Origin: Thiotrichaceae bacterium
GTDB lineage: Bacteria > Pseudomonadota > Gammaproteobacteria > Beggiatoales > Beggiatoaceae
DNA length: 64,000 nt
NCBI GenBank assembly: GCA_011391085.1
Contig: JAABRD010000007.1
Location: 1 to 64,000, forward strand
Reading direction: 5' to 3'
Shown: in pieces, positions 24,503-46,332 of the stretch
Position numbering within the stretch: the first letter of the stretch is position 1
Layout of the letters: every line of letters begins with the position of its first letter
Position numbers and translations under genes: made by a program
Notes under the pieces: model-generated
Databases searched by the model: none
Told to the model about the DNA's origin: nothing
Seen by the model: the letters and a program-made list of their open reading frames with translations, nothing else

Positions 24503-24552
24503 TAAAAATTTCACTATTCTATTTAACTATCCTCAAGAAGGAGTATTAACCC

Positions 24553-26250
24553 ATGAACCAATTAATCCTTGGAGACAATTTAGACATTTTGAAGAGTCTG
24601 GAATCTAACAGCATCGACTTGATTTATCTTGACCCCCCCTTCTTCTCCAATCGCAATTATGAAGTCATTTGGGGAGACGCCGGCGAGATTCGGAGTTTTC
24701 AAGATCGCTGGTCGGGTGGCATTGACCACTATCTTGCATGGTTAAAAGAACGGGTGGTGGAAATGCACCGACTGTTGAAACCGACAGGGTCGCTGTTTCT
24801 GCATTGTGATTGGCACGCTGATGCTTATATTCGAGTGTTAGTGTTGGACAAAGTGTTTGGGGAACAAAATTTTAGGGGAGACATTGTTTGGCAACGAGTT
24901 AATGCACATGGTGATGCCAAGAAAAAATTGGCCGTTCTCACTGACACCATCTGGTATTTTTCCAAAACAGAGAAGTTCCTCTATAACCCAATTTACACTG
25001 AACATTCAGAAAACTATAAAACCAGTTTTTACAAACACAATGATAATGATGGTAGAGGTGCGTATGGATTAAATGATATGTCAAGTCCTAACCCAAGACC
25101 CAATATGATGTATGAATGGTTGGGGTTTCCCTGTCCTGCTAAAGGTTGGCGTTATCAAAAGGAAACAATGCAAAAATTGCATGACGAGGGTAAGATTTAC
25201 TACCCTAAAAATAAAAAAGGGATGCCTGATTATTCAAAGAGACCCAGACTGAAGCGTTATTTGGATGAACAAAAGGGAACCTTATTGGGTAATATTTGGA
25301 CCGATATTCAAAATGTTCAATCCCATGCCAAAGAACGCATCGGCTACCCCACCCAAAAGCCCGAAGCCTTACTGGAACGTATTATCAACATAGCCAGCAA
25401 CGAAGGCGACACCGTGTTAGACCCGTTCGTCGGAGGAGGTACAACCGTGGCCGTCGCAGATCGGTTAAAACGTCAATGGCTAGGCATTGACCAATCGGTG
25501 CAAGCGATAAAAGTTTCGGAAATGCGGTTGCAGAAACAACAAGACTTGTTCTCCCAACCCTTTTTGGTTAAACTGCATAAATACGATTATGACACCTTAC
25601 GTTATTCCAACGCTTTCGAGTTTGAAACCTGGATCATTCAACAATCCGGCGGAGTGGCGAATACCAAACAACGTAGCGATTTAGGCTTAGATGGCCGAAC
25701 CCAAGACGGTTTACCGATACAAGTCAAACGGTCTGACAACGTTGGACGTAACGTCGTGGATAACTTTAAATCGGCCTGTGAACGGTTTGATAAAAATTTA
25801 TTTGCCCAGAACAAAGCCAATGCTACCCCTGTCGGCGTATTAATTGCGTTTAGCTTTGGTAAAGGCGCGATTCAAGAAGTGGCCCGCTTGAAAAATGAAG
25901 AAAACACCCTCATTCAATTACTCCGCGTTGACGACATCGTCCCCATTGCCAAGAAACCCAAGTTAAGCGTCGACCTGAACGATTTAGGATTGGATAGTAA
26001 AGGCTGGCATGACATTGAATTTGTTGCAGATGGCGAATCCGACGTCGGAATTGAATTTTATGCGTGGGATTTCCATTTCAATCAACCAGCAGGATTTAAA
26101 GCCGACGTGATGATTGATAAAATTGGCAAACAAACGGAGAAATTCAAACCGGGGAGTCATATCATTGCGGTCAAAGTGGTGGACAATGAAGGTCTGGAAA
26201 GTTTGGAAGTGCTGGAACTCAAGATTAACGGAAAGGTTCATGCTTCTTAA
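24553..26250 (+). CDS. DNA methyltransferase fused to a nuclease-like domain, copy 2
   Basis: Identical to the preceding gene except Ser to Asn in the WDFHFxQPAG loop of the C-terminal beta domain and Thr to Ala at the penultimate residue. All catalytic motifs (DPPF, DPFVGGGTT, and the D...QVK nuclease-like motif) are intact, and the ribosome site is the same, so both copies should be expressed. The near identity means a very recent duplication or continuing gene conversion; dosage of the methylase could be adjusted by copy number. An assembly artefact is also possible. Confidence 0.88.
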   Translation: MNQLILGDNLDILKSLESNSIDLIYLDPPFFSNRNYEVIWGDAGEIRSFQDRWSGGIDHYLAWLKERVVEMHRLLKPTGSLFLHCDWHADAYIRVLVLDKVFGEQNFRGDIVWQRVNAHGDAKKKLAVLTDTIWYFSKTEKFLYNPIYTEHSENYKTSFYKHNDNDGRGAYGLNDMSSPNPRPNMMYEWLGFPCPAKGWRYQKETMQKLHDEGKIYYPKNKKGMPDYSKRPRLKRYLDEQKGTLLGNIWTDIQNVQSHAKERIGYPTQKPEALLERIINIASNEGDTVLDPFVGGGTTVAVADRLKRQWLGIDQSVQAIKVSEMRLQKQQDLFSQPFLVKLHKYDYDTLRYSNAFEFETWIIQQSGGVANTKQRSDLGLDGRTQDGLPIQVKRSDNVGRNVVDNFKSACERFDKNLFAQNKANATPVGVLIAFSFGKGAIQEVARLKNEENTLIQLLRVDDIVPIAKKPKLSVDLNDLGLDSKGWHDIEFVADGESDVGIEFYAWDFHFNQPAGFKADVMIDKIGKQTEKFKPGSHIIAVKVVDNEGLESLEVLELKINGKVHAS

Positions 26251-30133: not shown

Positions 30134-33100
30134 GTGAACAACCCCATGTTCCAATTTAATCTATCAACGATGAATAACACCTCACAAGAAAGTCAAATTC
30201 TAACCCAATCAACCCCTGATTTCGCTATCTTTCAGGAACAATTGACTACCTTCACGGCGCCTGAAGTGCCTTATTTTAATCGTCTCCCAAAATCTCCGCA
30301 GCGACCTGTCGAAGTCCGCCCAGTGGCAGTCCCCGACGTCATGGCAGAAATTGACCCGTCAAGTACCCCTGTTTGGGATTGGCAAATCGTCCTGTTCACC
30401 GCGTTTGCCGTCTATTTAGCCCGTCTCTGCCAAACCAATCAACTGGACCTGGGTTTTAAACCACTACAATCGAAGTCCATCGAAGACGGTTCTGCCATCC
30501 ACATCCCCCTACGTCTGACTCTCGATTTGGAGGCTAATTTTGACCAAAATTATAAAGCGGTGGAACAGCAATTGGAGGCAACGATGCACCACTTCCAAGA
30601 TTGGTGTGCCCAATTCCCCGCTCTGTCCACCCCGCCGACTTATTCCGTCGTCATTGCCCAAGTCGAACACCCTCAGGATTATCAACCTCTATCAGAAGTC
30701 GGTCTCACCCTGCTGATCGCTTCCACAGGAGAGGTTCTATGGTTATATAATCTTGCGCAACTGAGTGACCCTCAAGGTCTCCAAATGCTTAAACAGTTCA
30801 TTACCTTGCAAGAGAGTCTGGCCACGCAATGGAACGCACCCATTTGGCAGTTACCCTTATTGAACGCCACCGAACGGCATCAACTCTTGATAGAATGGAA
30901 CAACACGGCCACCCCTTATCCAGCCGATAAGTGCATTCATCAACTGTTTGAAGAACAAGTGGAACGCACCCCGGACCAGGTTGCCGTGGTCTTTGAAGAG
31001 AAGCAGTTGACTTATCAAGAATTGAATCAACGGGCTAATCAACTGGCGCATTATCTGATCACGTTGGGAGTGCAAGCCGATAGTCTAGTGGGTATTTGTG
31101 TCGAACGTTCTATGGAGATGGTGATTGGCTTGTTGGGTATTCTCAAAGCTGGTGGCGCCTACGTTCCCCTAGAACCAGCTTATCCCAAAGAAAGATTGAC
31201 ATTCATGTTAACAGATGCCCAGGTGTCCGTGTTACTGACTCAAACCGCCTTACAAGCGAAACTACCTGCTACTACGGCACAAATCGTTTGTTTGGATGCT
31301 GGGCTGCGTTCCCCGTGGGTTACTTTCAACCAGCAAAACCCATCGGTACTTGTGCAACCTCACAATCTAGCTTATGTGATTTACACTTCCGGTTCTACGG
31401 GGCATCCCAAAGGCGCTTTGATAGTTCATCAAGGAGTGGTTCGTCTCGTACGCCACACCAATTATATCAACATCGATGAACAGGAAGTCTTTCTCCAATT
31501 GGCACCTCTCGCCTTTGACGCCTCCACCCTGGAAGTGTGGGCGCCTTTGTTGAATGGCGGTCATTTGGCCGTCATGTCCCCCGGCCCCGCTTCTCTAAGC
31601 GACATCGGTCAAGCCATTCATCACTATGGAGTCACCACGTTATGGTTAACGGCCAGCTTGTTTCACTTGATGGTTGAGGAACGATTAACCGATTTACAAC
31701 CGTTACATCAACTCCTAGCGGGAGGCGATGTGTTAGCGGTGCCACAGGTGAATAAAGCAGTGGCAGCTTTGACTCAAGGGCGACTGATTAATGGATATGG
31801 ACCTACCGAAAATACCACCTTCACTTGTTGTTACACAATCCCCAAACACACCGTCATAACTGGCAGTGTGCCCATTGGAAAACCCATAGCCAATACGCAA
31901 GTCTATATTTTAGATTCCTGGATGCAACCGGTACCAGTCGGAGTCGTAGGCGAACTCTACATTGGCGGTGCCGGTTTAGCACGAGAATATTTGAATCAAC
32001 CCGAATTGACGGCCGCTAAATTTGTTCCCAATCCGTATGGAGAAGGACGATTGTATAAAACTGGCGATAGAGTCCAGTGGTTACCAGAAGGCAATATCGA
32101 ATTTCTGGGACGCTTTGACCATCAAGTCAAATTAAGAGGCTTTCGAATTGAATTGGGCGAAATTGAAGCTACTCTGACCTCTCATTCAGCCGTGCGCGAA
32201 GCGGTGGCAATGCTTCGTGAAGACTCACTGGGGGAACCGTCTCTGACTGCCTACTTAGTTCCAACCAATGCCGATACTACCACCCAACATGAATATGTCG
32301 AACAATGGCAAAGTTTGTATGAAGAGACTTATAAAGAGGTCTCAGCCTCGGCAAAGGAGGATTTGAGTTTCAATATTCAAGGGTGGAATAGCAGTTACAC
32401 CGGGGGACCCATCCCTGCCGAAGAGATGGCCGAATGGGTGGAAAATACCGTAGCGGAATTACAAGCCCTATCGGCAACCAACATCTTAGAAATTGGTTGC
32501 GGCACAGGATTACTGTTAGCGCGGTTAGCCCCTCATTGTGACCAGTATTGGGGATTGGATTACTCTCACCAGGTCATCGCACAAGTGCAACGCTTGACCC
32601 AAACCATGGGACTTGAGAATGTCACATTACAACAACGGGTGGCCGATGATTTCACTGGGATTCCGACCCACACGTTTGACTTGGTCATCATTAATTCCGT
32701 CGTGCAATATTTCCCCAGTCTTGATTATTTACAACGGGTCATTGAAGGGGCGTTGCAAGCACTCAAACCAGGCGGAACTCTCTACTTGGGAGACATACGC
32801 AATTTCACCTTATTGGAAGCCTATCATGCCTCGGTGCAATTGTACCGTGCCACAGAAGACTTGACGCGGGCTGAATTGGTGGCACTAGTACAACAATATA
32901 TGAGGGATGAGGAGGAGTTACTGATTGCCCCCGCATTTTTTTATACGCTGCCGCACCGCTTCCCCCAAATCCAGGGAGTCGAGGTGCGCTTGAAACGGGG
33001 ACATTCTCAAAATGAATTGACACGCTTCCGTTATCAAGTGCTGTTGCATCTGAACGACACTCATGCCACTCCAGGAGTCCAAAGCGTAGCTTTGCCTGGC

Positions 33101-33994
33101 CAAGCCGATAGCTTTGACTGGCAACAAGAAGGCTGGCACCTCCCCAAACTTCGTTCCTACCTCTCCCAATCTACAGAATTGGGAAGCAAACCGTTACTTC
33201 TACACAACGTCCCCAATGCCCGTATTCAAAGGGAAATTCGAACCTTGGCGTGGTTAGCAGAATCTCATCCACAACAAGTCGTGGAGTGGCGTCAACAACT
33301 GGCCACCAGGTCTGGTGGGATTGACCCTGAAACGCTTTGGGCCTTGGGTGAAGAACTTTCTTATCAAGTCCATATCACTTGGTCTGAGGAGGCACCGGGG
33401 AGGATGACGGTGGTTTTTTACCGGGGTCCAGTTTTCCTAAACCTTGGAGGTTTAGGAAAGCTAACTGGGAGGCTGACCACGCCCCCCTATGCCAACAACC
33501 CGTTGATAGGTAAATGGCATCGTATCCTCGTTCCCCAACTGCGCGAGTATCTCCAGGCCAAACTCCCTGACTACATGATACCCGCAACTTGGGTCACGTT
33601 GGAAACACTACCCCTGTTACCCAACGGCAAAGTCAATCGGGCGGGTTTACCAACCCCGACCTTTTTCCACAGAACCACCAGGCAACCCATCGTACCCCCG
33701 CACACGGCAACCGAACAAGCCATTACCCAAATTTGGCGGGACCTGTTGGGACAGGTGCAGATAGGCATCCATGACAACTTTTATGAACTGGGTGGCCATT
33801 CTCTGTTAGCTACTCAAATCGTATCACGCCTGCGCTTGGCGTTACAAGTGGAAATACCTTTAAATCGATTTCTCAAACAACCCACGGTGGCGGCCCTAGC
33901 CCAATATGTGGATACTATAAAAGCGGCCCAAACGATGTTATCACAAAACGAAAATCAACCTGTTGATTCGAATGAGGAAGAAGAAATATGGTAA
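30134..33994 (+). CDS. NRPS loading module: partial C - A - N-methyltransferase - T
   Basis: A 1286-aa synthetase. Residues 1-240 resemble the C-terminal half of a condensation domain without HHxxxDG, so it is a starter module. The adenylation domain follows (A3 YTSGSTGHPKG about 417, A8 GRFDHQVKLRGFRIELGEIE about 659). An N-methyltransferase domain is inserted between A8 and A10 (SAM motif ILEIGCGTG about 784). A10 is LPNGKVNR and the carrier domain has GGHSL (phosphopantetheine Ser about 1222). My ten-residue code is DALWLGGTFK, close to the valine code DAFWIGGTFK. Product would be an N-methylated Val-type thioester. The GTG at 30134 or ATG at 30146 may start it. It overlaps the next gene by 7 bases. 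Two palindromic repeats lie in frame (33071-33099, 33433-33459). Confidence 0.93.
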   Translation: MNNPMFQFNLSTMNNTSQESQILTQSTPDFAIFQEQLTTFTAPEVPYFNRLPKSPQRPVEVRPVAVPDVMAEIDPSSTPVWDWQIVLFTAFAVYLARLCQTNQLDLGFKPLQSKSIEDGSAIHIPLRLTLDLEANFDQNYKAVEQQLEATMHHFQDWCAQFPALSTPPTYSVVIAQVEHPQDYQPLSEVGLTLLIASTGEVLWLYNLAQLSDPQGLQMLKQFITLQESLATQWNAPIWQLPLLNATERHQLLIEWNNTATPYPADKCIHQLFEEQVERTPDQVAVVFEEKQLTYQELNQRANQLAHYLITLGVQADSLVGICVERSMEMVIGLLGILKAGGAYVPLEPAYPKERLTFMLTDAQVSVLLTQTALQAKLPATTAQIVCLDAGLRSPWVTFNQQNPSVLVQPHNLAYVIYTSGSTGHPKGALIVHQGVVRLVRHTNYINIDEQEVFLQLAPLAFDASTLEVWAPLLNGGHLAVMSPGPASLSDIGQAIHHYGVTTLWLTASLFHLMVEERLTDLQPLHQLLAGGDVLAVPQVNKAVAALTQGRLINGYGPTENTTFTCCYTIPKHTVITGSVPIGKPIANTQVYILDSWMQPVPVGVVGELYIGGAGLAREYLNQPELTAAKFVPNPYGEGRLYKTGDRVQWLPEGNIEFLGRFDHQVKLRGFRIELGEIEATLTSHSAVREAVAMLREDSLGEPSLTAYLVPTNADTTTQHEYVEQWQSLYEETYKEVSASAKEDLSFNIQGWNSSYTGGPIPAEEMAEWVENTVAELQALSATNILEIGCGTGLLLARLAPHCDQYWGLDYSHQVIAQVQRLTQTMGLENVTLQQRVADDFTGIPTHTFDLVIINSVVQYFPSLDYLQRVIEGALQALKPGGTLYLGDIRNFTLLEAYHASVQLYRATEDLTRAELVALVQQYMRDEEELLIAPAFFYTLPHRFPQIQGVEVRLKRGHSQNELTRFRYQVLLHLNDTHATPGVQSVALPGQADSFDWQQEGWHLPKLRSYLSQSTELGSKPLLLHNVPNARIQREIRTLAWLAESHPQQVVEWRQQLATRSGGIDPETLWALGEELSYQVHITWSEEAPGRMTVVFYRGPVFLNLGGLGKLTGRLTTPPYANNPLIGKWHRILVPQLREYLQAKLPDYMIPATWVTLETLPLLPNGKVNRAGLPTPTFFHRTTRQPIVPPHTATEQAITQIWRDLLGQVQIGIHDNFYELGGHSLLATQIVSRLRLALQVEIPLNRFLKQPTVAALAQYVDTIKAAQTMLSQNENQPVDSNEEEEIW
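33071..33099 (+). repeat. In-frame 'GGAGTCCAAAGCG' repeat in NRPS
   Basis: CCAGGAGTCCAAAGCGTAGC...TTTGCCTGG encodes PGVQSVALPGQA between the methyltransferase and the end of the A domain. The same repeat is otherwise intergenic (9692, 15707, 20093, 54196, 57080). Confidence 0.75.
33433..33459 (+). repeat. In-frame 'TTTCCTAAACCT' palindrome in NRPS
   Basis: 12-bp arms and a 3-base loop, the family seen at 4141-4167. It encodes FLNLGGLGK in a loop where the second NRPS gene has unrelated sequence at the equivalent place. Confidence 0.75.
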
Positions 33995-36900
33995 ATGTTA
34001 CTCTCACCGCCCTGCTGACGGAATTACAAAACTTAGGGGTCAAACTGTGGGTCGAAGCCGACCAATTACGCACCAAGGCACCTAAAGGGGTTATCACGCC
34101 CACCTTACGCACTCAAATTCAGACGCATAAAGCGGAACTTATCGATATCCTCCGACAAGCCCAACGCGAAACCACGTCGTCACCGGCCATTCCACTGGCA
34201 CCGCGAACGGGCCAATTGCCACTCTCCTTTGCCCAACAACGGTTATGGTTCTTAGAACAAATGGGGGCTGGGGCCGCTTACAACGTCTTCTCCGCCTTGC
34301 AACTGACCGGCGAATTAAATGTGGCCGCCTTACAAGCCACATTGCATGAAATTGTACAACGCCATGAAAGTTTGCGTACCACTTTTGCAGAAGCAGAAGG
34401 AGAAGTCTATCAACTCATTCACCCTGACGCAACGTTAGACCTGCCCTTGGTGGATTTGCGTCACCTTGCCCCATCTGAACAAACAGCAGAAGTGAAACGA
34501 TTGGCCTTAACGGAAGCCCAAAAGACTTTTGATTTGACTCGTGATCTGATGATACGGGCGACCCTCTTACAACTACAGGCGACTCCTGCTACCTATGTTC
34601 TCTTGTTAACCATGCACCATATTGCAGTGGATGGTTGGTCAATTAATGTTTTGGTGCATGAACTGACTTCCATCTACCCTGCTTTCTGCCAGGGACAACC
34701 CTGCCCATTGCCTCCTCTACCCATTCAATATGCCGATTTTGCGATTTGGCAACGGCACTGGTTACAAGGGGAAGAATTAGCCACTCAGTTACGCTATTGG
34801 AAAACCCAATTGGCGGGTGCCCCTGAATTACTCTCCTTGCCTACGGACCGGCCGCGTCCACCGACCCAAACCTATGAAGCTGACGTGTGCCGCGTTCAAA
34901 TTTCAGCAGAGGACACGCAAGCGTTACAGGAACTCACTCGCCAAGCCGATGCGACATTGTTTATGACCTTGTTAGCGGCTTTCCAAGTATTACTGTCGCG
35001 CTACAGTGGCCAACCTGACGTGGTAGTCGGTTCCCCCATTGCCAACCGCAATCGCCAGGAAATTGAACCCATGATTGGCTTCTTTGTGAACAACTTGGCC
35101 TTGCGGGCGAATCTGGCTGACAATCCCAGTTTTCTCGACCACTTGGCACGAGTGCGGCACACCATGCAGGAGGCTTACACGCATCAAGATTTACCATTTG
35201 AACAATTAGTGGAAGAGTTACAACCGACTCGAACCTTGAATTACAACCCAATTTCGCAAGTGGTGTTGGCCTTACAAAGTGCCTTTATCGAACGTTTGGA
35301 ATTGCCCGGCCTCCAAATTGCCCGACCTTTGGATTTCTTCTACACCTCAAAAGTACGCATGGACATCGAAGTCCATCTCTGGGAACGCAATAGTGGCGTG
35401 GATGGCGTTTGGCTATATAATACCAATTTATTTGATGCCACCACGATGGAACGAATGAGTCGCCACTTTCAGACCTTGTTAAAAGGAATCCTAGCGAATC
35501 CCCATCAAAAAGTTGCCCAACTGCCTCTCTTAACCGAAGAGGAACGCCATCAACTGCTGGTAGAATGGAATGATACCGCCACCCCCTATCCCCAAGACAA
35601 GTGCATTCACCAGTTATTTGAAGAACAAGTGACCCGTACTCCTGACCTGGTTGCAGTCGTCTTTGAAGGTCAGTTACTAACCTATCAAGACTTAAATCAA
35701 CGCGCCACTCACCTGGCTTCTTATTTGCAAACACTAGGCGTCGGCCCAGACATCTTAGTCGGTCTATGCGTAGAACGTTCCTTAGACCTCGTCATTGGCC
35801 TCTTAGGCATTTTAAAAGCCGGTGGCGCCTACGTTCCCCTGGACCCCGGCTATCCCAAAGAACGATTAGCTTACATGCTAACCGATGCCCAACTGCCGAT
35901 TATCCTCACCCAAACCCATTTACTTGGCACCGTTGGACTAGAAGCGTTAGCCGGAGAATTGTGCAAAATAACCTGCATGGAAGAGTTAACCAAACTGAAG
36001 AGTGACACTTCACTCTCCACTCTCCACTCTCCGCTGTCCACCAACCTGGCCTACGTCATCTACACCTCCGGTTCCACTGGCCACCCGAAAGGTGCCCTCA
36101 TTCAACATCAAGGCTTATGCAACCTAGCACAAGCCCAAATTCGGGCCTTTGGCGTTCAACCAGGTCATCGAGTCTTACAATTTGCCTCACTCAATTTTGA
36201 TGCCTCCATTTCGGAAGTTGTGATGACCCTGTTAGCTGGCGCCACCTTATATTTAGCTAAAAAGGAGGACCTGTTACCTGGTGTAGAATTAAGTCGTTTC
36301 CTCACCAAACACGCCATCACGCATATCACCTTAGTGCCTTCCGCATTAGCGGTCTTATCGCCTGAAGAGTTAACCAGTTTAAGCACCCTTATCGTGGCCG
36401 GTGAACCTTGTCCCCTGGAATTAATGAAACGTTGGCGAGACGGACGACATTTTCTCAATGCCTATGGACCCACCGAAACGACGGTTTGCGCCACCATTAT
36501 GAATTGTGACGCACTCTCTTCAATCCTACCTTCTCCCCCCATCGGCCGGCCGATAGACAATACCCAAGTTTATATTTTAGACCAATGGATGCAACCGGTA
36601 CCAATCGGCGTCACGGGCGAGTTATATGTAGGTGGCGTGGGGTTGGCACGAGGATATTTGAATCAACCAGAATTGACTGTAACCAAGTTTATTCCCAATC
36701 TATTTGGGGAGGGACGCTTGTACAAAACGGGTGATTTAGGACGCTGGTTGCCCGACGGGAATATCGAATTTTTAGGACGTGTGGACCATCAAGTAAAACT
36801 CCGTGGCTTTCGGATTGAGTTGGGTGAAATTGAAGCCACCTTAACCTCTTATCCCGCGGTGCAAGATGCCGTCGTCATGCTTCGTGAAGACCAGCAGGGA

Positions 36901-39900
36901 GACCCGCGCTTAACTGCCTACTTGACACCAAAGACCAGTGACACAGCGACGCAAAGCGAACATGTCCAACAGTGGCAAAATTTATATGAGGACACTTATG
37001 GACAAGTCGCCACGGACGTGGATTTGAATTTCAATATTGGTGGTTGGAATAGTAGTTACACGGGAGAACCGATTCCTGCGGTAGAAATGGCCGAATGGGT
37101 AGAAAATACCGTGGCAGAATTGCGGGCGTTATCTGCTTCACAGATTTTAGAAATGGGTTGCGGTTCTGGACTACTGTTAGGACGCCTGGCCCCTCATTGT
37201 GAGAGTTACTGGGGCGCCGATTATTCCCAACACGCCTTGACTCAAGTGCAACGCTTGACCCAAACTGCGGGACTCCAGAACGTCACGTTACGGCAACGGT
37301 TAGCTGATGATTTTACCGGGATTCCTTCTCAAACTTTTGATTTGGTCATCGTCAACTCCGTGGTGCAATATTTTCCCAGTCTGGACTACTTACTACGGGT
37401 CATTGAAGGGGCGGTGCAAGCACTCCAGCCGGGCGGAATTATCTATTTGGGGGACATTCGAAATTTCACGTTACTGTCTGCCTATCATGCTTCCGTGCAA
37501 CTCTATCGTGCCTCAGACGAGGTGACCCAGGCTGAATTGGCGGCCCGTGTGCAACAGCGTATGTTGGATGAGGAGGAATTACTGATTGCCCCCGCGTTTT
37601 TTTATACGCTACCACAACGTTTTCCTCAAATCCAGAAAGTCGAAGTGCGGTTGAAACGGGGACATTATCAGAATGAATTGACGCGCTTCCGTTATCAGGT
37701 GTTGTTGCATCTGGGCGCCGCTAATACTAACACTTCCTCAAATAAAGAGGAGACTAAGGACTGGCAGTCCTGCATACCCAGCGATAGCTTTGACTGGCAA
37801 CGAGAAGACTGGACTCTTCCCAAACTCCGTTCCCACTTACTTGCTAACTCCACAGAGTTAGACAAACGAATCCTAGTTCTACGCAACGTCCCCAATGCCC
37901 GGGTTCAACAGGAAATTCAAACGCTGGCTTGGTTAGGTGAAACCTCTGCACAACCAGTCGCTGACTTACGTCAAAGGTTGACCACTCAACCCAGTGGAAC
38001 TGACCCAGAAACTCTTTGGGCGTTGGGTGAAGAACTGTCTTATGCAGTCCATATCACCTGGTCAGAAAACGAATCAGGGGAGATGGATGTGTATTTTTAC
38101 AAAGGTGAACATGTTCTGGAGTCCACATCGAAAGACGTGGCCAGGCTACAGTTGACCGCCTCTGCCAACAACCCATTGTTAGGCAAATGGCACCGGCGCG
38201 TGGTGTCCCAATTGCGCGAATTTCTCCAGTCTAAATTGCCAGATTACATGATACCTTCCGCCTGGGTGACGTTAGATGCGTTGCCTCTGTTGCCCAATGG
38301 CAAGGTCAATCGTAACGCGTTGCCAGCACCGGCCACCTTGCAGAGAAGTACCAACCAACAAATGGTACAGCCGCGCTCGGCCACGGAAGAGACAATGGCC
38401 AAAATTTGGCGAGAAGTGTTGGGAGTGACGCGGATTGGTATTCATGACAATTTCTTTGAACTTGGTGGCCATTCTCTCTTAGCTACCCAGGTCACATCGC
38501 GGTTACGCAATGCGTTTGGAATCGAGGTGAGTGTGCGCCAACTGTTTGAAACGCCAACCTTGGCGACCTTAAGTCAGGTCGTTGATGCCACTCATACCAC
38601 TGGCAATTTGAGTCTGCCTCCCCCGATGCGCCCGCGTCCCAAACCTGACAAATTGGATTCCAACTTTGTGGAAGAAGAAAAACAGCCTTTATCTTTTGCC
38701 CAACAACGGCTTTGGTTTATCAATCAACTCGAAGGACCTAATCCCGTTTACAACATCCCGGTGGCATTGCGGTTAACCGGTCATTTGGACGTGGTGGCAT
38801 TAGAAGTGTCGTTCAATCAGATTGTCGAAAGACATGAAGTGTTACGCACATCTTTTCCATCCCAAGAGGGCGTGGCCCGGCAACGCATTGCGCCGATGTT
38901 AACAGTGACCTTGCCAGTGATTGAAGTGTCTTCCGCTGAATTACAGGAACAATTGGTGACAGAGGCTTGGCAACCGTTTGATTTAGCTTCGGGACCTTTG
39001 TTACGAATCAAGTTGTATCGCCTCACCGAGACGGAACATGTTTTATTACTCAACCTCCATCATATCATTGCCGATGGCTGGTCAATGGGGGTCTTGTTCA
39101 CCGAATGGAATGCCCTCTATTCCGCCTTCCTCAAAGGGGCACCGTCCCCCTTGCCACCACTTACGATTCAATATGCGGATTTTGCATTGTGGCAAAGAGA
39201 ATGGTTACAAGGGGAGATGTTAACACGTCTCCTGGCTTATTGGCAACAACAGTTGGCACACATTTCCACTTTACTCAATTTACCGACGGACCATCCGCGT
39301 CCACCGGTGCAATCTCTCCGCGGGGACAGTTTGACTTTTGAATTTGCCCCTGAGTTGACCACTGCGCTGATTCAATTCAGTCGTACCCAGGGGGTCAGTT
39401 TGTTTATGACCCTCTACGCCGGGTTTGCGGTGCTACTCTCTCGTTACGGTGGACAAGAGGATATTGTGATAGGCGTACCCATTGCCAATCGTCAATATCG
39501 AGAAATTGAATCTCTAATTGGTTTTTTTGTCAACACCTTAGCTTTACGGGCCGACTTAACGGGCAATCCGAGTGTCCTCGAATTGCTAACACGAGTGCGG
39601 CAGATGACGTTAGATAGTTACAAACATCAAGATATTCCTTTTGAACAACTGGTCAACGAGTTGAAAATTGAACGGAGTCTGAGTCATCATCCCCTGTTTC
39701 AAGTGATGTTGACCTTAAATAATGCCGTTGGCACAGAATATTGGCAATTGGCAGATTTAATGGTCACCGAAGTGGCGTTGGATAGCCACAATGCTAGATT
39801 TGATTTACTTATCGCCTTGGAAGAAAAAACGGCCCGTCAACTCTCAGGAATAGTGGAATACAACCGCGACCTGTTTGAACCAGCCACCATAGCGCGTTTG

Positions 39901-42900
39901 CTAGGTCACTTCCAAACCTTATTGACCAGTATCGTAGCCAATCCCAACCAGCCGATACAACAGTTACCGTTATTGACAGCGGCGGAACGTCTCCAACTTT
40001 TGGAGGAATGGAATGACACTGCCATTCGACATCCAACTGAACAGAATGAGAAACTGAGTTTCTTCGGGGCAGAGAAGTGCGTCCATCAACTCTTTGAAGA
40101 ACAAGCAGAACGTACCCCAGACCGGGTAGCCGTGATATTTGAAGAGAAGTCTTTGACCTATCGAGAACTGAATCAACGTGCTAACCAACTTGCTTACTAC
40201 TTACACACTTTGCAAGTAGGTCCTGACGTGTTGGTAGGAATTTGTGCAGAACGTTCCTTCGACTTGGTCATCGGCATCCTGGGGATTCTTAAAGCTGGCG
40301 GTGCCTACGTGCCCCTCGACCCCAACTATCCCAAAGAACGTCTGGAGTTCATGGTAACGGATGCCCAAATGCCAGTTCTGTTAACGCAAGCACACCTGCG
40401 GTCCCGTCTTCCCCAAACGGCTGCCCATATAGTGTGCTTAAATGAACTAACTTTGTTCGAACCCCAGAAACTCAGTTTCTTGAAGAAACTGAGTTTCTCC
40501 TCTCAAAATTTGGCTTACGTTATCTATACCTCTGGTTCGACGGGACATCCCAAAGGGGTTATGATGCCTCATCAAGCCTTGTACAATCTGATTGCCTGGC
40601 AACTCGAACACACCACCGTTGCGCCTGATAGTCACACGTTGCAATTTGCCCCTATCAGTTTTGACGTGTCCTTCCAAGAAATTTTTTCCACTTGCACCAC
40701 AGGAGGGACGTTGGTGTTAATTTCTGAAGACCGCCGACGCGATATGGAAGCCTTGTTACGTCTGCTGATAGACCAACGTATTCAGAGACTCTATCTCCCC
40801 TTTGTGGCCTTGCAAAGTTTGGCCGAAGTGGCAGTCGACAGTCGCACTCTACCTACCAGTTTGAAAGAAGTGATTACGGCGGGTGAACAACTCCAAATCA
40901 CGCCTGCTATCACTCGTTTTTTTCAGCAAACAGGGGCGACTTTGCACAACCATTATGGACCCTCCGAAACCCACGTAGTGACGGCTTATACGTTATCGAA
41001 AGCGGTGGCTGATTGGCCCACTTTGCCACCCATTGGTCGTCCGATAGCCAATGTCAAACTCTACATCCTGGATTCCCACTTACAACCGACTCCTATCGGC
41101 ATTCCAGGTGAGTTATATCTCGGTGGTGTGTGTTTAGCCCGCGGATACTTGAATCGACCAGAATTGACAGCCGAGAAATTTATTGACAATCCGTATGGTG
41201 AAGCGCGTTTGTACAAAACGGGTGACTTGACTAGATGGTTGCCAGATGGCAATATCGAATTTCTTGGACGCATTGACCAACAAGTGAAAATTCGTGGATT
41301 TCGTATTGAACTCGGTGAAATCGAAACGGTCCTCAGTCAACATCCCGCCGTCCAGGAAGTGGTGGTTCTGGTGCATACCGATGACCGTGGCGAAAAACGA
41401 CTCCATGCCTATCTCACACGTCGCGCCGGTGAGGTTGGACTAGAGGCTTCAGCCGGTGAGGTTGGACTAGAGGCTTCAGCCGGAGACCTACGGTCTTACC
41501 TCGCCCAAAAACTCCCCGATTACATGATACCCGCTACCTTCCTAGTCCTAGAACGTCTCCCCCAGACCCCCAGTGGCAAGATAGACCGGCGGGCTTTATC
41601 GGAACTGGGATTGACGCAAGTCACGCAAACGCCTTCCGATACCTTACCCTTGCAAACGCCCACAGAGGAGATAGTGGCAGCCATTTGGGCGGAAGTGTTA
41701 AAATTGGACAAGATCGGACGTGACGACAACTTCTTTGATTTAGGTGGCCATTCTTTATTGGCCACGCAAGTCACGTCACGACTACGGAAGGCGTTTGGTT
41801 TGGAGGTGACCGTGCGGCAATTATTTGAATATCCAGTTCTCTCGCAACTGGCTATGATGCTATCTAGCACCGCAGCGCAAGGCGAGTTACCGATGCCGCC
41901 ACCGTTGCAACCGCATCCAGAATGGGTGGCAAATGAGGCGAAGATACCGTTATCGTTTGCCCAACAACGCTTCTGGTTCTTAGACCAATTGGAAGGACCT
42001 AGCCCGACTTATAATTTCCCGATTCCACGCCGTTTGAGTGGCCCGTTACAAGTGGGTGCCTTGGAAGCCAGTCTTAACGAAATCGTGCAACGGCATGATA
42101 TTTTACGCACGACTTTCCCGGCTGATGACGGGATAGCTTACCAGCGGGTGGCGCCCGCGGTGCCGTTCACGGTGCCGATTATTACGACCACCGAAACGGA
42201 ATTACCTGGCTTGTTAGTGGAGGAGGCTTGGCAACCGTTTGATTTGGCGACGGGACCCTTGTTACGAATCAAATTGTATCGGTTAACTGAGACCGAACAG
42301 GTCTTGTTCATCAACTGCCATCATATCATTGCAGACGGGTGGTCAGTGGCAGTTTTATTCAAAGAATTGGACTTGTTATACACCGCCACCCTCAAGGGTG
42401 AACCCTCACCATTGCCACCGTTGGCCGTGCAATATACGGACTTTGCAATCTGGCAACGGCATTGGTTGCAAGGAGAAGTGTTGGCGCGACAACTGGCTTA
42501 CTGGCAACGTCAATTGGCAGGTGCCCCTACGTTATTGAACTTGCCTACCGACCATCTGCGCCCGCCCGTTCAAACCTTCAATGGTCGGTATCAATGTTTT
42601 GAATTGACACCTGAATTAACCGCGGAGTTGAAGGCGTTGAGTCGGCAACAAGAAGTCAGTTTGTTCATGCTACTGTATGCCGCTTTTGCGGTGTTATTGT
42701 CTCGTTATAGTGGTCAAGAAGACCTGGTAATCGGTTCCACGATTGCCAACCGTCATTATCGTGAAATTGAACCTCTCCTGGGTCTGTTCGTCAACACTCT
42801 CGCCCTGCGGGCCAATCTGTCGGGTCGCCCCAGTTTTATTGAGTTGTTGGGACGAGTGCGACAACTGACGTTGGATAGCCATTCTCATCAGGATATTCCC

Positions 42901-45900
42901 TTTGAACAGTTAGTAGGCGAGTTACAAATCGAACGCAGTTTGAGTCACACGCCGCTGTTTCAGGTGATGATCACGTTGAACAATACCTCCTCTGAAACGC
43001 CGCAATTAGGGGATTTAGAACTCGCCTGGATGGACTTTGAAAGTGTGATTTCCGCCTTTGATTTAACCCTGTCACTGGCTGAATCCGACGGCATTTTATT
43101 GGGAGGGTTGGAATATAATATCGATTTATTTGAACCGACCACAATCCATCGAATGATTGGTCATTTTCAAACGTTGTTACGGGGTATCGTGGCCAACCCA
43201 ACCCAGTTGATAACCCAATTGCCATTGTTGACAGAGGAGGAACAACAACTCATTTTAGTGAAGTGGAATGACCCAGGCGTGTCTCCTCCTTCAGACGTAT
43301 GTCTTCCCCACAGATTTGAGGCACAGGTAGAACAGTCGCCCAATCAAGTGGCCCTGCTATGGGAAGGACCGCAGATGACCTATTGGGAATTAAATCAACG
43401 GGCGAATCAGGTGGCGGCCCACTTACAAACGTTGGGCGTCGGGCCCGACGTTCCCGTGGGTGTTTGCACTGGTCGTTCACCAGAGATGATTATTGGCTTG
43501 TTGGCGGTGTTAAAAGCAGGTGGAGTGTATGTGCCATTAGACCCGGAATTGCCGGCAGAACGGTTGACGTTTATGTTGAGTGATGCGGGAGTGCAAGTGT
43601 TATTGACTTCGTTCACCCATTTGAAGGTGGGTACCAATCTGAAAATTTGTACCCTGCCACCGGCTGAAGCCTCTAGTCCCGGGGTTGGAGAACCGGGACT
43701 AGAGGCTTTAGCCGGAGGGCGAGGCACGTCATTGGCCTACATCATTTACACATCGGGGACCACTGGATTGCCGAAAGGAGTGATGATAACGCATGACTCC
43801 CTTTCCAATCATATCAACACCATGGTCACCAAATATCAAATCACTCCCGCTGACCGAGTCCTCCAATTTGCGTCCATCAGTTTTGATACTGCTTTGGAAC
43901 AGATTTTCACGGCGTTACTAGGTGGTGCCACGCTGGTGTTACGGGGCGATAACCTCTGGTCCATTGACGAGTTCAATGAGACGGTGTTGAAAACAGGTTT
44001 GACGGTGGCAGACTTGCCACCAGCGTATTTACACGAGTTGTTAGAACATTGGTTGGGGCAACCGCCAACGTTTTTAAATGGACAACTACGCCTGATGATT
44101 GTGGGTGGGGAGAAAATTTCTTTGGATACTCTGAAACGGTGGCAATCACTATCCACTATCCACTATCCACTATCCACTATCCACTATCCGTTATCCACTC
44201 TCTTGCTAAATGCGTATGGTCCCACCGAAACGACCATCACGGCCACGCTATTTGACCTGACTTCTTATCAAAGTCACGATTTACATTTAAATATTCCCAT
44301 TGGGCCACCGTTACCAGGTCACCTGGTGTATATTCTTGACCCCGACTTGCAACCCGTGCCGATGGGCGTGGCGGGAGAACTACATATTGGGGGCGCAAAT
44401 GTGGCGCGTGGGTATCTCAACCGTCCGGAATTGACGGCGGAAAAATTTATTCCGAATCCGTTTGGGGAAGGACGCTTGTATAAGACGGGTGACTTGGTAC
44501 GTTGGCAACCAGATGGCAATATTGAATTTTTAGGACGTTTAGACCATCAGGTGAAAATTCGTGGATTCCGCATTGAGTTAGGAGAAGTGGAAACCGTGTT
44601 AAGTACCCATCCAGAGGTGCAAGAAACGGTGGTTATTGCCCGGCCCGACCACCGTGGCCAGCCGCGTCTGATAGCTTATTTGACTCTCCTCGCCGAGACG
44701 CTAAGTGCCTCCGCAACCTCTAGCTTCTGGAGTGCGGAACTCCGAACTTATCTCATTGACCGGTTGCCACTCTACATGGTGCCTGCCGCGTTTGTGATAT
44801 TAGACCGCTTCCCGTCGACCACCAGTGGCAAATTAGACCGGGAAGCCTTACCTGAACCGAATCTGGAGAGGTTAGCCAGAACCTCTGAATTTGTGCCACC
44901 ACGCACGCCCCTGGAGAAACAGTTGGCAACGGTGTGGAAGGCAGTATTAGGAGTGACCCAAGTGGGTTGTCAAGATGACTTCTTTGAACTGGGGGGCAAT
45001 TCCTTGTTGGCATTACAATTGATTGCTAAACTGTCCACTACCCTGAATCGACAGTTATCCGTCAAGTTCTTATTTTTATGTCCAACCATTGCGCAACAAG
45101 TGATTGAGTTAACCGCGGCCCATCACTCGTCTTTGGTTCAGGGAGAGGAGGCCAAGAAGCTGAGTTTCTCCAAGAAGCTGAGTTTCTCCGCGGAGACGCA
45201 TTTGCCACTGACGATTACCGTCAAAGATTTATTGCCTTACTCGCGGGATTCTGTGGCGACGTCCAAGAATATCTTATTGACTGGCGCCACCGGTTTTTTG
45301 GGAATTTATTTGTTGCAGGAGTTGTTAACTTCTACCACGGCTACTATCTATTGTCTGGTACGGGCCTCGGGTGAGGTGGAGGGCTTCCAGCGTCTGGAAA
45401 GTAAAATGCGGGAATGTCAGATTTGGCAGGAGGCTTATCGGCAACGAATCATCGCAGTCTTGGGAGATTTAGCGCGTCCTCTATTGGGAATCAGTGAGAC
45501 CGTCTATGACACTTTGGCACAACAAGTTGACGTTATTTATCACAATGGTGCGATGGTGAATTACTTGTCCACCTACTCTCAACTCAAAGCGGCCAACGTG
45601 TCAAGTATGCAGGAAGTGTTGACTTTAGCGACGCGCCACCGCGTGAAGGCAGTGCATTACATTTCAACGCTGGGCGTATTAACTGCCGATGTTGGCGGTC
45701 ATCCTGTGGTATTTCATGAAAATGACGAGTTGATAACGATTCCAGACGGTGGCTATAATCAAAGCAAATGGGTGGCCGAAAAACTGCTGGCAGTGGCCCG
45801 TGACCGCGGTATTCCAGTATCGATTTATCGATTAGGAATCGTGGGCGGACATAGTGAGACTGGCATTTGGAATGAGAAGGACTTCCGTTGCCTCTTGATT

Positions 45901-46332
45901 AAGGCTTGTCTAACACTCGGAAAATGGCCAGAGATGGAGATGGGATTAGAAATTGCCCCGGTGGATTATGTCAGTCGGGCGCTAGTCCATCTCTCCCTGC
46001 AACCGTCTTATTTAGGCAAAACGTTTCATATCGACAACCCGGTGGGAGTATCGTTCACGCAATTCTTCCAACAGATTGCCAAGTTAGGGTATTCCATTCA
46101 GCCGGCCTCTTCTGAGGAGTGGGGTCAGATGTTGATGGAACAAGCCACGGCAACGGGAGATGAGACTTTGTCATTTCTCGTTCCTGTGTTTGCGACAGAG
46201 TTGCCCCAAGCTGGGGGCGAGTTCCACATTGACAGTCTGCAAACTCAGACGGAATTGCGCAAGCATTCGCTGGAATGTCCTGTGATAGACGAGAACCTTC
46301 TGAAAAAATATCTGGCGTATTTGACGAGATAG
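33988..46332 (+). CDS. NRPS, three modules with terminal reductase: docking-C-A-MT-T-C-A-T-C-A-T-TD
   Basis: A 4114-aa synthetase. Residues 1-58 form a TubC-type N-terminal docking domain (LLTELQNLGVKLWVEADQL). Module 2: C (HHIAVDG ~210), A (YTSGSTG ~691), N-methyltransferase (ILEMGCGSG ~1053), T (GGHSL ~1492). Module 3: C (HHIIADG ~1690), A (~2180), T (~2585). Module 4: C (~2777), A (YTSGTTG ~3253), T (GGNSL ~3668). A thioester reductase ends it (ILLTGATGFLG ~3762, YNQSKWVAEKLL). Codes by eye: module 2 DASTIAAVCK (Tyr/Phe-like), module 3 DVQYIAHVVK (Pro), module 4 DTEDIGAITK (acidic pocket, so a basic residue is likely). No epimerase or thioesterase. Release as aldehyde, imine or alcohol is inferred. 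Several linkers are made of genome repeats. Confidence 0.95.
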   Translation: MVNVTLTALLTELQNLGVKLWVEADQLRTKAPKGVITPTLRTQIQTHKAELIDILRQAQRETTSSPAIPLAPRTGQLPLSFAQQRLWFLEQMGAGAAYNVFSALQLTGELNVAALQATLHEIVQRHESLRTTFAEAEGEVYQLIHPDATLDLPLVDLRHLAPSEQTAEVKRLALTEAQKTFDLTRDLMIRATLLQLQATPATYVLLLTMHHIAVDGWSINVLVHELTSIYPAFCQGQPCPLPPLPIQYADFAIWQRHWLQGEELATQLRYWKTQLAGAPELLSLPTDRPRPPTQTYEADVCRVQISAEDTQALQELTRQADATLFMTLLAAFQVLLSRYSGQPDVVVGSPIANRNRQEIEPMIGFFVNNLALRANLADNPSFLDHLARVRHTMQEAYTHQDLPFEQLVEELQPTRTLNYNPISQVVLALQSAFIERLELPGLQIARPLDFFYTSKVRMDIEVHLWERNSGVDGVWLYNTNLFDATTMERMSRHFQTLLKGILANPHQKVAQLPLLTEEERHQLLVEWNDTATPYPQDKCIHQLFEEQVTRTPDLVAVVFEGQLLTYQDLNQRATHLASYLQTLGVGPDILVGLCVERSLDLVIGLLGILKAGGAYVPLDPGYPKERLAYMLTDAQLPIILTQTHLLGTVGLEALAGELCKITCMEELTKLKSDTSLSTLHSPLSTNLAYVIYTSGSTGHPKGALIQHQGLCNLAQAQIRAFGVQPGHRVLQFASLNFDASISEVVMTLLAGATLYLAKKEDLLPGVELSRFLTKHAITHITLVPSALAVLSPEELTSLSTLIVAGEPCPLELMKRWRDGRHFLNAYGPTETTVCATIMNCDALSSILPSPPIGRPIDNTQVYILDQWMQPVPIGVTGELYVGGVGLARGYLNQPELTVTKFIPNLFGEGRLYKTGDLGRWLPDGNIEFLGRVDHQVKLRGFRIELGEIEATLTSYPAVQDAVVMLREDQQGDPRLTAYLTPKTSDTATQSEHVQQWQNLYEDTYGQVATDVDLNFNIGGWNSSYTGEPIPAVEMAEWVENTVAELRALSASQILEMGCGSGLLLGRLAPHCESYWGADYSQHALTQVQRLTQTAGLQNVTLRQRLADDFTGIPSQTFDLVIVNSVVQYFPSLDYLLRVIEGAVQALQPGGIIYLGDIRNFTLLSAYHASVQLYRASDEVTQAELAARVQQRMLDEEELLIAPAFFYTLPQRFPQIQKVEVRLKRGHYQNELTRFRYQVLLHLGAANTNTSSNKEETKDWQSCIPSDSFDWQREDWTLPKLRSHLLANSTELDKRILVLRNVPNARVQQEIQTLAWLGETSAQPVADLRQRLTTQPSGTDPETLWALGEELSYAVHITWSENESGEMDVYFYKGEHVLESTSKDVARLQLTASANNPLLGKWHRRVVSQLREFLQSKLPDYMIPSAWVTLDALPLLPNGKVNRNALPAPATLQRSTNQQMVQPRSATEETMAKIWREVLGVTRIGIHDNFFELGGHSLLATQVTSRLRNAFGIEVSVRQLFETPTLATLSQVVDATHTTGNLSLPPPMRPRPKPDKLDSNFVEEEKQPLSFAQQRLWFINQLEGPNPVYNIPVALRLTGHLDVVALEVSFNQIVERHEVLRTSFPSQEGVARQRIAPMLTVTLPVIEVSSAELQEQLVTEAWQPFDLASGPLLRIKLYRLTETEHVLLLNLHHIIADGWSMGVLFTEWNALYSAFLKGAPSPLPPLTIQYADFALWQREWLQGEMLTRLLAYWQQQLAHISTLLNLPTDHPRPPVQSLRGDSLTFEFAPELTTALIQFSRTQGVSLFMTLYAGFAVLLSRYGGQEDIVIGVPIANRQYREIESLIGFFVNTLALRADLTGNPSVLELLTRVRQMTLDSYKHQDIPFEQLVNELKIERSLSHHPLFQVMLTLNNAVGTEYWQLADLMVTEVALDSHNARFDLLIALEEKTARQLSGIVEYNRDLFEPATIARLLGHFQTLLTSIVANPNQPIQQLPLLTAAERLQLLEEWNDTAIRHPTEQNEKLSFFGAEKCVHQLFEEQAERTPDRVAVIFEEKSLTYRELNQRANQLAYYLHTLQVGPDVLVGICAERSFDLVIGILGILKAGGAYVPLDPNYPKERLEFMVTDAQMPVLLTQAHLRSRLPQTAAHIVCLNELTLFEPQKLSFLKKLSFSSQNLAYVIYTSGSTGHPKGVMMPHQALYNLIAWQLEHTTVAPDSHTLQFAPISFDVSFQEIFSTCTTGGTLVLISEDRRRDMEALLRLLIDQRIQRLYLPFVALQSLAEVAVDSRTLPTSLKEVITAGEQLQITPAITRFFQQTGATLHNHYGPSETHVVTAYTLSKAVADWPTLPPIGRPIANVKLYILDSHLQPTPIGIPGELYLGGVCLARGYLNRPELTAEKFIDNPYGEARLYKTGDLTRWLPDGNIEFLGRIDQQVKIRGFRIELGEIETVLSQHPAVQEVVVLVHTDDRGEKRLHAYLTRRAGEVGLEASAGEVGLEASAGDLRSYLAQKLPDYMIPATFLVLERLPQTPSGKIDRRALSELGLTQVTQTPSDTLPLQTPTEEIVAAIWAEVLKLDKIGRDDNFFDLGGHSLLATQVTSRLRKAFGLEVTVRQLFEYPVLSQLAMMLSSTAAQGELPMPPPLQPHPEWVANEAKIPLSFAQQRFWFLDQLEGPSPTYNFPIPRRLSGPLQVGALEASLNEIVQRHDILRTTFPADDGIAYQRVAPAVPFTVPIITTTETELPGLLVEEAWQPFDLATGPLLRIKLYRLTETEQVLFINCHHIIADGWSVAVLFKELDLLYTATLKGEPSPLPPLAVQYTDFAIWQRHWLQGEVLARQLAYWQRQLAGAPTLLNLPTDHLRPPVQTFNGRYQCFELTPELTAELKALSRQQEVSLFMLLYAAFAVLLSRYSGQEDLVIGSTIANRHYREIEPLLGLFVNTLALRANLSGRPSFIELLGRVRQLTLDSHSHQDIPFEQLVGELQIERSLSHTPLFQVMITLNNTSSETPQLGDLELAWMDFESVISAFDLTLSLAESDGILLGGLEYNIDLFEPTTIHRMIGHFQTLLRGIVANPTQLITQLPLLTEEEQQLILVKWNDPGVSPPSDVCLPHRFEAQVEQSPNQVALLWEGPQMTYWELNQRANQVAAHLQTLGVGPDVPVGVCTGRSPEMIIGLLAVLKAGGVYVPLDPELPAERLTFMLSDAGVQVLLTSFTHLKVGTNLKICTLPPAEASSPGVGEPGLEALAGGRGTSLAYIIYTSGTTGLPKGVMITHDSLSNHINTMVTKYQITPADRVLQFASISFDTALEQIFTALLGGATLVLRGDNLWSIDEFNETVLKTGLTVADLPPAYLHELLEHWLGQPPTFLNGQLRLMIVGGEKISLDTLKRWQSLSTIHYPLSTIHYPLSTLLLNAYGPTETTITATLFDLTSYQSHDLHLNIPIGPPLPGHLVYILDPDLQPVPMGVAGELHIGGANVARGYLNRPELTAEKFIPNPFGEGRLYKTGDLVRWQPDGNIEFLGRLDHQVKIRGFRIELGEVETVLSTHPEVQETVVIARPDHRGQPRLIAYLTLLAETLSASATSSFWSAELRTYLIDRLPLYMVPAAFVILDRFPSTTSGKLDREALPEPNLERLARTSEFVPPRTPLEKQLATVWKAVLGVTQVGCQDDFFELGGNSLLALQLIAKLSTTLNRQLSVKFLFLCPTIAQQVIELTAAHHSSLVQGEEAKKLSFSKKLSFSAETHLPLTITVKDLLPYSRDSVATSKNILLTGATGFLGIYLLQELLTSTTATIYCLVRASGEVEGFQRLESKMRECQIWQEAYRQRIIAVLGDLARPLLGISETVYDTLAQQVDVIYHNGAMVNYLSTYSQLKAANVSSMQEVLTLATRHRVKAVHYISTLGVLTADVGGHPVVFHENDELITIPDGGYNQSKWVAEKLLAVARDRGIPVSIYRLGIVGGHSETGIWNEKDFRCLLIKACLTLGKWPEMEMGLEIAPVDYVSRALVHLSLQPSYLGKTFHIDNPVGVSFTQFFQQIAKLGYSIQPASSEEWGQMLMEQATATGDETLSFLVPVFATELPQAGGEFHIDSLQTQTELRKHSLECPVIDENLLKKYLAYLTR
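35931..35960 (+). repeat. In-frame 'GGACTAGAAGCGTTAGCCGG' arm in NRPS
   Basis: Encodes VGLEALAGE in the module-2 A domain, ahead of the A3 motif. It is a degenerate copy of the intergenic GGACTAGAGGCTTTAGCCGG arm. Confidence 0.55.
36007..36036 (+). repeat. CACTCTC-type short tandem repeat in NRPS
   Basis: CACTCTCCACTCTCCACTCT continues into CCGCTGTCC and encodes LSTLHSPLST just before the module-2 A3 motif. It resembles the CACTATC heptamers elsewhere. Confidence 0.6.
40466..40498 (+). repeat. In-frame 'GAAACTCAGTTTC' double palindrome in NRPS
   Basis: A complete 33-bp member of the intergenic family, encoding [12 protein letters not shown] just before the module-3 A3 motif. A half copy (GAGAAACTGAGTTTCTTC) lies at about 40046-40063 and encodes EKLSFFG at the C-A boundary. 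Confidence 0.85.
41430..41483 (+). repeat. Tandem in-frame 'GGACTAGAGGCTTCAGCCGG' arms in NRPS
   Basis: Two 27-bp direct copies encode GEVGLEASA twice in the linker between A8 and A10 of module 3. Confidence 0.85.
43661..43718 (+). repeat. In-frame inverted pair of 'GGCTGAAGCCTCTAGTCC' arms in NRPS
   Basis: ACCGGCTGAAGCCTCTAGTC...GGACTAGAGGCTTTAGCCGG is a complete palindromic member of the intergenic family and encodes PAEASSP...GLEALAG just before the module-4 A3 motif. Confidence 0.85.
44147..44188 (+). repeat. CACTATC heptamer array (6 units) inside module-4 A domain
   Basis: Six perfect 7-bp units plus two degenerate ones encode LSTIHYP twice, then LST, immediately before the A5 motif NAYGPTETT. 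Because 7 is not a multiple of 3, gain or loss of one or two units would shift the frame of the remaining ~720 codons. Confidence 0.9.
45155..45192 (+). repeat. In-frame tandem 'AAGCTGAGTTTCTCC' in NRPS
   Basis: Two 15-bp direct copies encode KKLSFS-KKLSFS between the last carrier domain and the reductase domain; derived from the GAAACTCAGTTTC family. Confidence 0.8.

Follow-up and report, generated by a model that had tools for sequence, protein, structure and literature searches.

The palindromic elements of Rickettsia (RPEs) form in-frame fusions with unrelated genes, each family giving a recurrent peptide, and compatibility with the host fold has been proposed for them (PMC10969869; here and for the other papers cited, statements refer to the part of the text available). 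Short repetitive extragenic palindromes (REPs) of the GTAG/CGTC type, and dimers of them, occur within open reading frames (ORFs) in many species, and flexible linkers have been proposed to account for their tolerance (Di Nocera 2013, PMC3733652). REPs also form the inverted doublets known from the REPIN/RAYT system (RAYT, REP-associated tyrosine transposase; PMC3116915), and for the enterobacterial RU/ERIC elements with ORFs the idea has been put forward that small mobile repeats fuse in frame to give new peptides (PMC2759123). We have found that two nonribosomal peptide synthetase (NRPS) genes in a 64,000-nt stretch of DNA from a Thiotrichaceae bacterium (contig C118, positions 1-64000; hereafter the window) together carry 12 in-frame repeat elements of six families. 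We favor, with a probability of about 0.68, the explanation that these are in-frame REP- or RPE-like elements that are concentrated in megasynthase linkers by structural tolerance and screened according to the peptide that each one specifies.

The source genome comprises 5.77 Mb in 140 contigs (99.9% complete), and the family of the bacterium is represented by 42 genomes. An earlier note on this DNA had quoted nine repeat sites in the two genes. All nine exist, and each keeps the reading frame of its gene, both genes (1286 and 4114 aa) being open. Three elements come in addition to that list: 36010-36032 consists of (CACTCTC)n, 37757-37771 is AGGACTGGCAGTCCT, and 41461-41485 holds the second copy of a REP1 tandem pair. 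The genes and elements are listed below, with A, C, T and MT denoting adenylation, condensation, carrier and methyltransferase domains and R the terminal reductase.

30134-33994, plus strand: NRPS-A, 1286 aa, an A domain with embedded methyltransferase, then a carrier domain.
33988-46332, plus strand: NRPS-B, 4114 aa, C-A(MT)-T, C-A-T, C-A-T, terminal reductase.
33070-33095, plus strand: GTCC-family element, read PGVQSVALP, downstream of the NRPS-A methyltransferase.
33433-33459, plus strand: TCCT hairpin, TTTCCTAAACCT-TGG-AGGTTTAGGAAA, in NRPS-A, read VFLNLGGLGK.
35934-35954, plus strand: REP1 element, differing from the nearest intergenic copy at two positions, both synonymous, read VGLEALAG, module 1 A2-A3 loop.
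36010-36032, plus strand: (CACTCTC)n heptamer run, read SLSTLHSPL, in the module 1 A2-A3 loop that it shares with the REP1 element at 35934.
37757-37771, plus strand: AGGACTGGCAGTCCT palindrome, read KDWQSC, module 1 methyltransferase linker; flagged by intergenic repeat 12-mers and present once in the window.
40049-40064, plus strand: single KLSF palindrome, read EKLSFF, module 2 C-A linker.
40465-40499, plus strand: KLSF double palindrome, module 2 A2-A3 loop (63 aa).
41434-41459, plus strand: REP1 tandem copy 1, read VGLEASAGE, module 2 A8-A10 region.
41461-41485, plus strand: REP1 tandem copy 2, read VGLEASAGD, module 2 A8-A10 region, at a 27-nt pitch.
43657-43719, plus strand: REP1 inverted dimer, read PPAEASSPGVGEPGLEALAGG, module 3 A2-A3 loop (63 aa).
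44146-44202, plus strand: (CACTATC)n heptamer array, module 3 A4-A5 loop (30 aa).
45155-45189, plus strand: diverged KLSF double palindrome, read KKLSFSKKLSFS, carrier-reductase (T-R) linker.

The peptides predicted across the repeats include LSFLK/KLSF and GLEASAGEVGLEASAG. The sites had been described as lying in NRPS linkers; they do occupy variable loops, but the ones at 35934, 36010, 40465, 43657 and 44146 belong to adenylation-domain loops and not to linkers between domains, and CACTATC, which had been counted among the palindromes, is a heptamer array.

The proposal that these elements belong to repeat families dispersed through the spacers of the genome holds well: the families are multi-copy here and rare or absent in most relatives. 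The palindromic pattern AAACTNAGTTTC, counted on both strands, has 560 and 570 matches here (1 and 2 for the backwards control), and the highest counts among 94 relatives are 13 and 12, in genome G037. GANTNGAGGCTTTAGCC has 734 and 759 matches here and 542 and 519 in the family member G010, with zero matches in the remaining 40 family genomes. Within a sample of 728,872 nt (0.73 Mb), which includes contigs chosen for holding NRPS genes, seven consensus families give 807 matches, 692 of them wholly intergenic; the GTCC family accounts for 105 (92 intergenic) and the TCCT family for 19 (14 intergenic). REP1 neighbors less than 120 nt apart are oriented +- in 79 cases, ++ in 65, -- in 53 and -+ in 13, and KLSF units are paired at an 18-nt pitch, which happens to preserve the frame, in 18 of 21 cases; in these REP1 orientations and KLSF pairs we find the inverted REP doublets that characterize REPINs.

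Copies that lie deep in genes are concentrated in genes for NRPSs and polyketide synthases (PKSs). As family-neutral probes we took all intergenic 12-mers with at least 5 copies, and we counted as deep in a gene any stretch of 16 nt or more that came no closer than 240 nt to the start of the gene and no closer than 60 nt to its end. In the sample, 28 of 42 such stretches fall in eight NRPS/PKS genes that make up 48,549 of 555,099 nt, or 8.7%, of called gene DNA (p ~4e-20), and 14 fall in other genes. Only the longer stretches are informative, since reversed k-mers, which yield 1 (NRPS/PKS) and 0 (other genes) at 16 nt or more, give high counts of 9 and 71 at 12 nt. We compare rates per gene length rather than genome shares because of the way in which the sample was composed. 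Among genes of at least 3 kb, 7 of 8 NRPS/PKS genes and 5 of 23 others hold such a stretch (Fisher p 0.002). Counted by the seven named families, 36 of 40 deep copies are in NRPS/PKS genes (24 of 28 with the window genes excluded), and reversed, uncomplemented consensuses give 0 deep matches against 49 real ones, or 40 after the exclusion of nine REP1 matches in a low-scoring 158-aa ORF (C11 64246) built of tandem REP1 copies. The seven families omit the CCCCTCTCCC/GGGAGAGGGG hairpin family, which supplies 8 of the 14 stretches outside NRPS/PKS genes; 28 of 42 is therefore the count that does not depend on the choice of families, and 36 of 40 has a narrower base. The 14 stretches fall in six genes. 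Two are large genes with one or two stretches apiece, one of them encoding a PAS-histidine kinase-receiver-Hpt protein; the products of the other four are a phosphorylase/TPR protein, a protein of 1503 aa, a protein with a KdpD domain and a restriction enzyme of Type ISP. The Type ISP restriction-modification enzyme (L070 12296-17137, C75:152296-157137) carries two in-frame CCCCTCTCCC/GGGAGAGGGG hairpins in helicase-domain loops; these repeats, of ~18 and ~13 codons, accompany net gains of 11 and 9 aa relative to LlaBIII/LlaGI.

The earlier note had suggested checking by alignment whether the repeats are insertions of 3n bases. We measured loop lengths between core motifs in homologues from other genomes. 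At all measurable loops the elements are absent from those homologues, and at three of them there is a net gain: the C-A linker, which has 10 aa in every one of 18 homologues and also in NRPS-A and module 1, is 21 aa (+11) in module 2 with its KLSF palindrome; the A4-A5 loop, 11-21 aa in 23 homologues, is 30 aa (+12) in module 3 with the CACTATC array; and the A8-A10 region, 42-58 aa in 41 homologues, is 62 aa (+13) in module 2 with two REP1 copies. The A2-A3 loops behave differently. Their median is 62.5 aa (range 45-72) in 34 homologous loops, and loops with repeats measure 67, 63 and 63 aa in the window and 68 aa in an NRPS on contig C55, against 64, 63 and 63 aa without repeats. Because length hardly rises even though repeats occupy ~12-21 residues of these loops, the A2-A3 repeats seem largely to stand in for host residues. 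Plain 3n insertion as an account of every site is thus rejected for the A2-A3 loops, where replacement is length-neutral. In an alignment to LgrA (PDB), the A8-A10 element faces a gap and the A2-A3 element does not. The NRPS-A stretch with the TCCT hairpin at 33433 has 37 residues and its NRPS-B paralog without the hairpin 35; our search for homologues gave no usable matches for the linkers next to the methyltransferases (33070, 33433, 37757) or for the one joining T and R (45155). An AlphaFold model of the module 2 A domain (535 aa, 12-sequence alignment) has a mean predicted local distance difference test (pLDDT) score of 83, falls below 50 at residues 1-22 and 478-490 and averages 58 over residues 151-160, and the repeat segments (16-21, 155-166 and 478-495) coincide with these low-confidence stretches. 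We take this as supportive only, since segments without homologues score low anyway in a shallow alignment.

Orthologues from another phylum show filled and empty sites. Protein similarity identified NRPS/PKS orthologues of ~4,000 aa at 73-74% identity in Saprospiraceae loci L018, L019, L021 and L023 (four of six related loci were aligned; L015 and L022 are fragments and were left out). At alignment column 1394 a CACGGACTGNCAGTCCGTG doublet with its spacer encodes 19, 19 and 20 residues in L018, L019 and L023 and nothing in L021, and the genomes contain 39, 43, 21 and no copies of CACGGACTGNCAGTCCGTG, respectively. L019 alone gains 22 residues near column 2845 and 11 at column 421, and L018 alone gains 21 at column 3628; CCGAACTSSAGTTCGG has 37 copies in the L019 genome and zero in those of L018, L021 and L023. 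In the L019 genome, 8 of 80 exact copies of CACGGACTGNCAGTCCGTG and CCGAACTSSAGTTCGG lie in one 12.1-kb gene, where 0.16 would be expected under uniformity, an enrichment flattered by the fact that the gene was chosen for showing palindromes. Of 32 other copies in that genome (20 stretches), 18 lie outside any open frame of at least 120 aa and 14 inside, at least two of the latter apparently mid-gene. These putative palindromic in-frame insertions with empty sites are an independent replication of what we see in the window. We also note that at column 2711, within one linker, three of the four orthologues contain different large inverted repeats. A scan of genome contigs yielded 24 loci, none of them from the family of this bacterium. 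Of 43 apparent hairpins in other genomes, 24 were stretches of N in L006 and were set aside, leaving 19. In Aminicenantes, a palindrome in the A2-A3 loop of L016 occurs in 6 exact copies across its genome, a number insufficient to support a case.

The frame in which the elements are read also seems not to be arbitrary. For 39 genic elements we compiled all open frames; this set includes the single palindrome at 40049, added by hand, and excludes the matches in the 158-aa ORF, a GTCC match at C55 40573 that has five mismatches, and the latter half of the array (44174). Wherever exactly one arginine-free and one arginine-containing frame were open, the Arg-free frame was used (22 of 22 sites: REP1 10, ACCT 6, TCCT 4, GTCC 2). 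With tandem and dimer copies counted once these represent ~15 places, for a chance of ~2^-15 if frames are equally likely. At four sites with three open frames differing in Arg, the Arg-free frame was used at two; ten sites have no Arg difference and three a single open frame. Use of the Arg-free frame is the only sign here that the encoded peptide may matter.

The explanation we prefer would run as follows. REP/REPIN-like palindromes and heptamer arrays, dispersed through the genome and multiplying in its spacers, would be the source of which the NRPS elements are copies within genes; copies would enter genes at random, and the majority of those in coding sequence would be lost. NRPS and PKS genes would offer many surface loops and linkers in which a stop-free change of 3n bases spares the fold, and in length-limited A2-A3 loops copies would be kept only if neighboring host residues were lost, conserving length. 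A second filter would act on the peptide, such that Arg-free frames (GLEALAG, PAEASSP, NLTGLQDLSGL, FLNLQGLGK) survive and Arg-containing ones (TRGFSR, RLKPLV, KPDRSSRPVRF, FPKPSRFRK) do not. The presence, frame and multiple copies of the elements, their concentration in NRPS/PKS genes, the effects on length and the choice of frame are what we observe; we infer arrival by insertion in this genome, trimming, and tolerance as the cause of the concentration. Megasynthases appear to be a place where spacer repeats can become protein sequence. A bolder extension, that NRPS/PKS genes are a recurrent sink in at least two phyla, in which palindromes are recruited, swapped at the same linker and read in the Arg-free frame, steadily supplying linker sequence, with shared repeats perhaps acting as seams for module exchange, is possible, and we hold it only tentatively.

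As to a possible mover of the copies, the genome has one PF01797 match, a RAYT-like Y1 transposase gene (C75:34353-34640, L060 14353-14640; 30 bits), which sits between clusters of GTAG-tagged GGTGGATTAAGCG repeats (GGTGGATTAAGCGAAGCGTATCCACC). GTAG precedes 67 of 68 copies of GGTGGATTAAGCG in the sample, which places that family in the GTAG REP superfamily, defined by a GTAG tag (or GTRG/GYAG, and in a single family GTGG) at the base of a stem of 5-13 bp. REP1 does not fit this definition: among 339 copies in the sample the tag is CTAG in 191, GTGG in 65, GTAG in 58 and another in 25, so that about one third carry GTRG and CTAG is commonest. RAYT mobility is plausible for this class of repeat, but the single RAYT gene is flanked by the GGTGGATTAAGCG family instead of those found in the NRPS genes, and we do not propose it as their mover.

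Several observations weigh against our explanation. The RAYT-flanking GTAG family is deep in genes in 0 of 68 cases in the sample. In G010 the REP1 pattern occurs 1,061 times, often in tandem arrays, yet all 10 REP1 matches near its NRPS loci (100 kb) are intergenic, with none in five long genes (~53 kb); a REP-rich genome as sufficient cause is contradicted by this. The A8-A10 region reaches 71 aa in one G010 loop and 57 aa in the window's own module 3 without a known repeat, so it can lengthen by other routes as well. An NRPS gene of a PKS cluster has two KLSF sites that use an Arg-containing frame despite an open Arg-free one, the Arg pattern was spotted after the fact and wants a fresh set, and being in frame proves little by itself because gene calling required open frames. 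Lastly, when genic copies are compared with their nearest intergenic ones, a silent-site bias is not clear (24 differences synonymous, 41 not, a count that includes the spurious 158-aa ORF).

It might be that the hairpins are retained for a function in NRPS/PKS mRNA or DNA, for example by making translation pause where domains meet or by serving as seams when modules recombine. Folding is strong for several of the NRPS copies (43655-43720 as a single strand, -55 kcal/mol), the inverted repeats at Saprospiraceae column 2711 differ yet recur in three of four orthologues, and at column 2933 two orthologues have AGGTGACACCT...AGGTGTCACCT where the other two have a different sequence of equal length. 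Against this, many copies form no hairpin (the heptamer arrays) or a weak one (35934, -3.2 kcal/mol), sites vary between modules, and 18 NRPS loci of the Beggiatoaceae family (L026-L044 minus L036 of G010) contain no inverted repeat with arms of at least 10 and a loop of at most 10; we consider such retention improbable. We dropped an argument that synonymous changes had abolished the hairpins at 35934 and 45155, since folding shows weakening only (-3.2 vs -4.0 kcal/mol, and -15.5 vs -17.0 and -19.3 kcal/mol). In quasipalindrome correction, template switching occurs within one strand, and palindromes could have arisen or been perfected locally in this way, rather than by transposition, with length-neutral change expected. 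The A2-A3 loops would fit, as would column 2933 with its different sequences of equal length and column 3628, where a REP-like stretch of L019 matches L021 and L023 in length. Because the families recur hundreds of times elsewhere in the genome, however, the sequence must have been copied in, and other sites show net length gains; we consider a local origin improbable too. That these are ordinary variable loops, chance similarities or mis-assemblies is very improbable, for although A2-A3 varies from 45 to 72 aa among homologues and the assembly is a draft of 140 contigs, reversed controls are near zero, the 4114-aa frame is open through 10 elements, and the pattern recurs on four contigs and in the orthologues of other genomes.

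Elsewhere in the window, a perfect 1691-bp tandem duplication (22509-24199 and 24390-26080) carries two 565-aa N6/N4 DNA methylase genes, identical at 1696 of 1698 nt, and reflects either a recent duplication or an assembly effect. Two unrelated 22-bp tandem arrays lie at 56283-56495 (~7 copies in register) and 59516-59680 (~6 copies in register), and a search against Rfam gave no match anywhere in the window. The TAACTGA triplet repeat described for marine Beggiatoaceae (PMC4679880, in the part available) is abundant in several family genomes (326 strand matches in G017 and 344 in G039), in line with the family being Beggiatoaceae.

A search of open-licence literature on REPs and NRPSs, intragenic palindromes and RAYTs, and repeats in Saprospiraceae NRPSs turned up no paper on repeats in NRPS linkers, and the main text of PMC3733652 uses neither 'peptide synthetase' nor 'polyketide'. 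Elements of the REP and RPE type lying in frame within genes have been described before (PMC3733652, PMC10969869, PMC2759123), and the kind of event is known. The parallel that the earlier note had drawn with Rickettsia is a fair one (PMC10969869, PMC3733652): the elements resemble RPEs in their in-frame intragenic location and absence from homologues. RPEs are ~150 bp long (PMC10969869), whereas those described here are 15-63 nt, belong to several families and are concentrated in NRPS/PKS genes, and we liken them by description, not by sequence. The REPs of Di Nocera 2013 were discussed with stress on DNA repair genes (PMC3733652), and REP1, with its predominant CTAG tag, is unlike them. With the REPIN/RAYT system this genome shares inverted doublets and one RAYT-like gene, and differs in that the RAYT-flanking family is not the one in the NRPS genes; RU/ERIC elements are longer, at 103-168 bp, and concern other genes (PMC2759123). 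Until now, repeats read in frame have been catalogued as oddities. In the present case several families enter one gene class, most encoded peptides obey a frame rule and Saprospiraceae provide full and empty linkers, which together make a system in which the passage from non-coding repeat to protein can be tested, and one that offers natural data, relevant to engineering these enzymes, on the inserts that NRPS loops accept. As far as our searches go, four features are new: the repeats are concentrated in megasynthases, they follow a frame rule, they replace host sequence without a change in length, and they recur in Bacteroidota.

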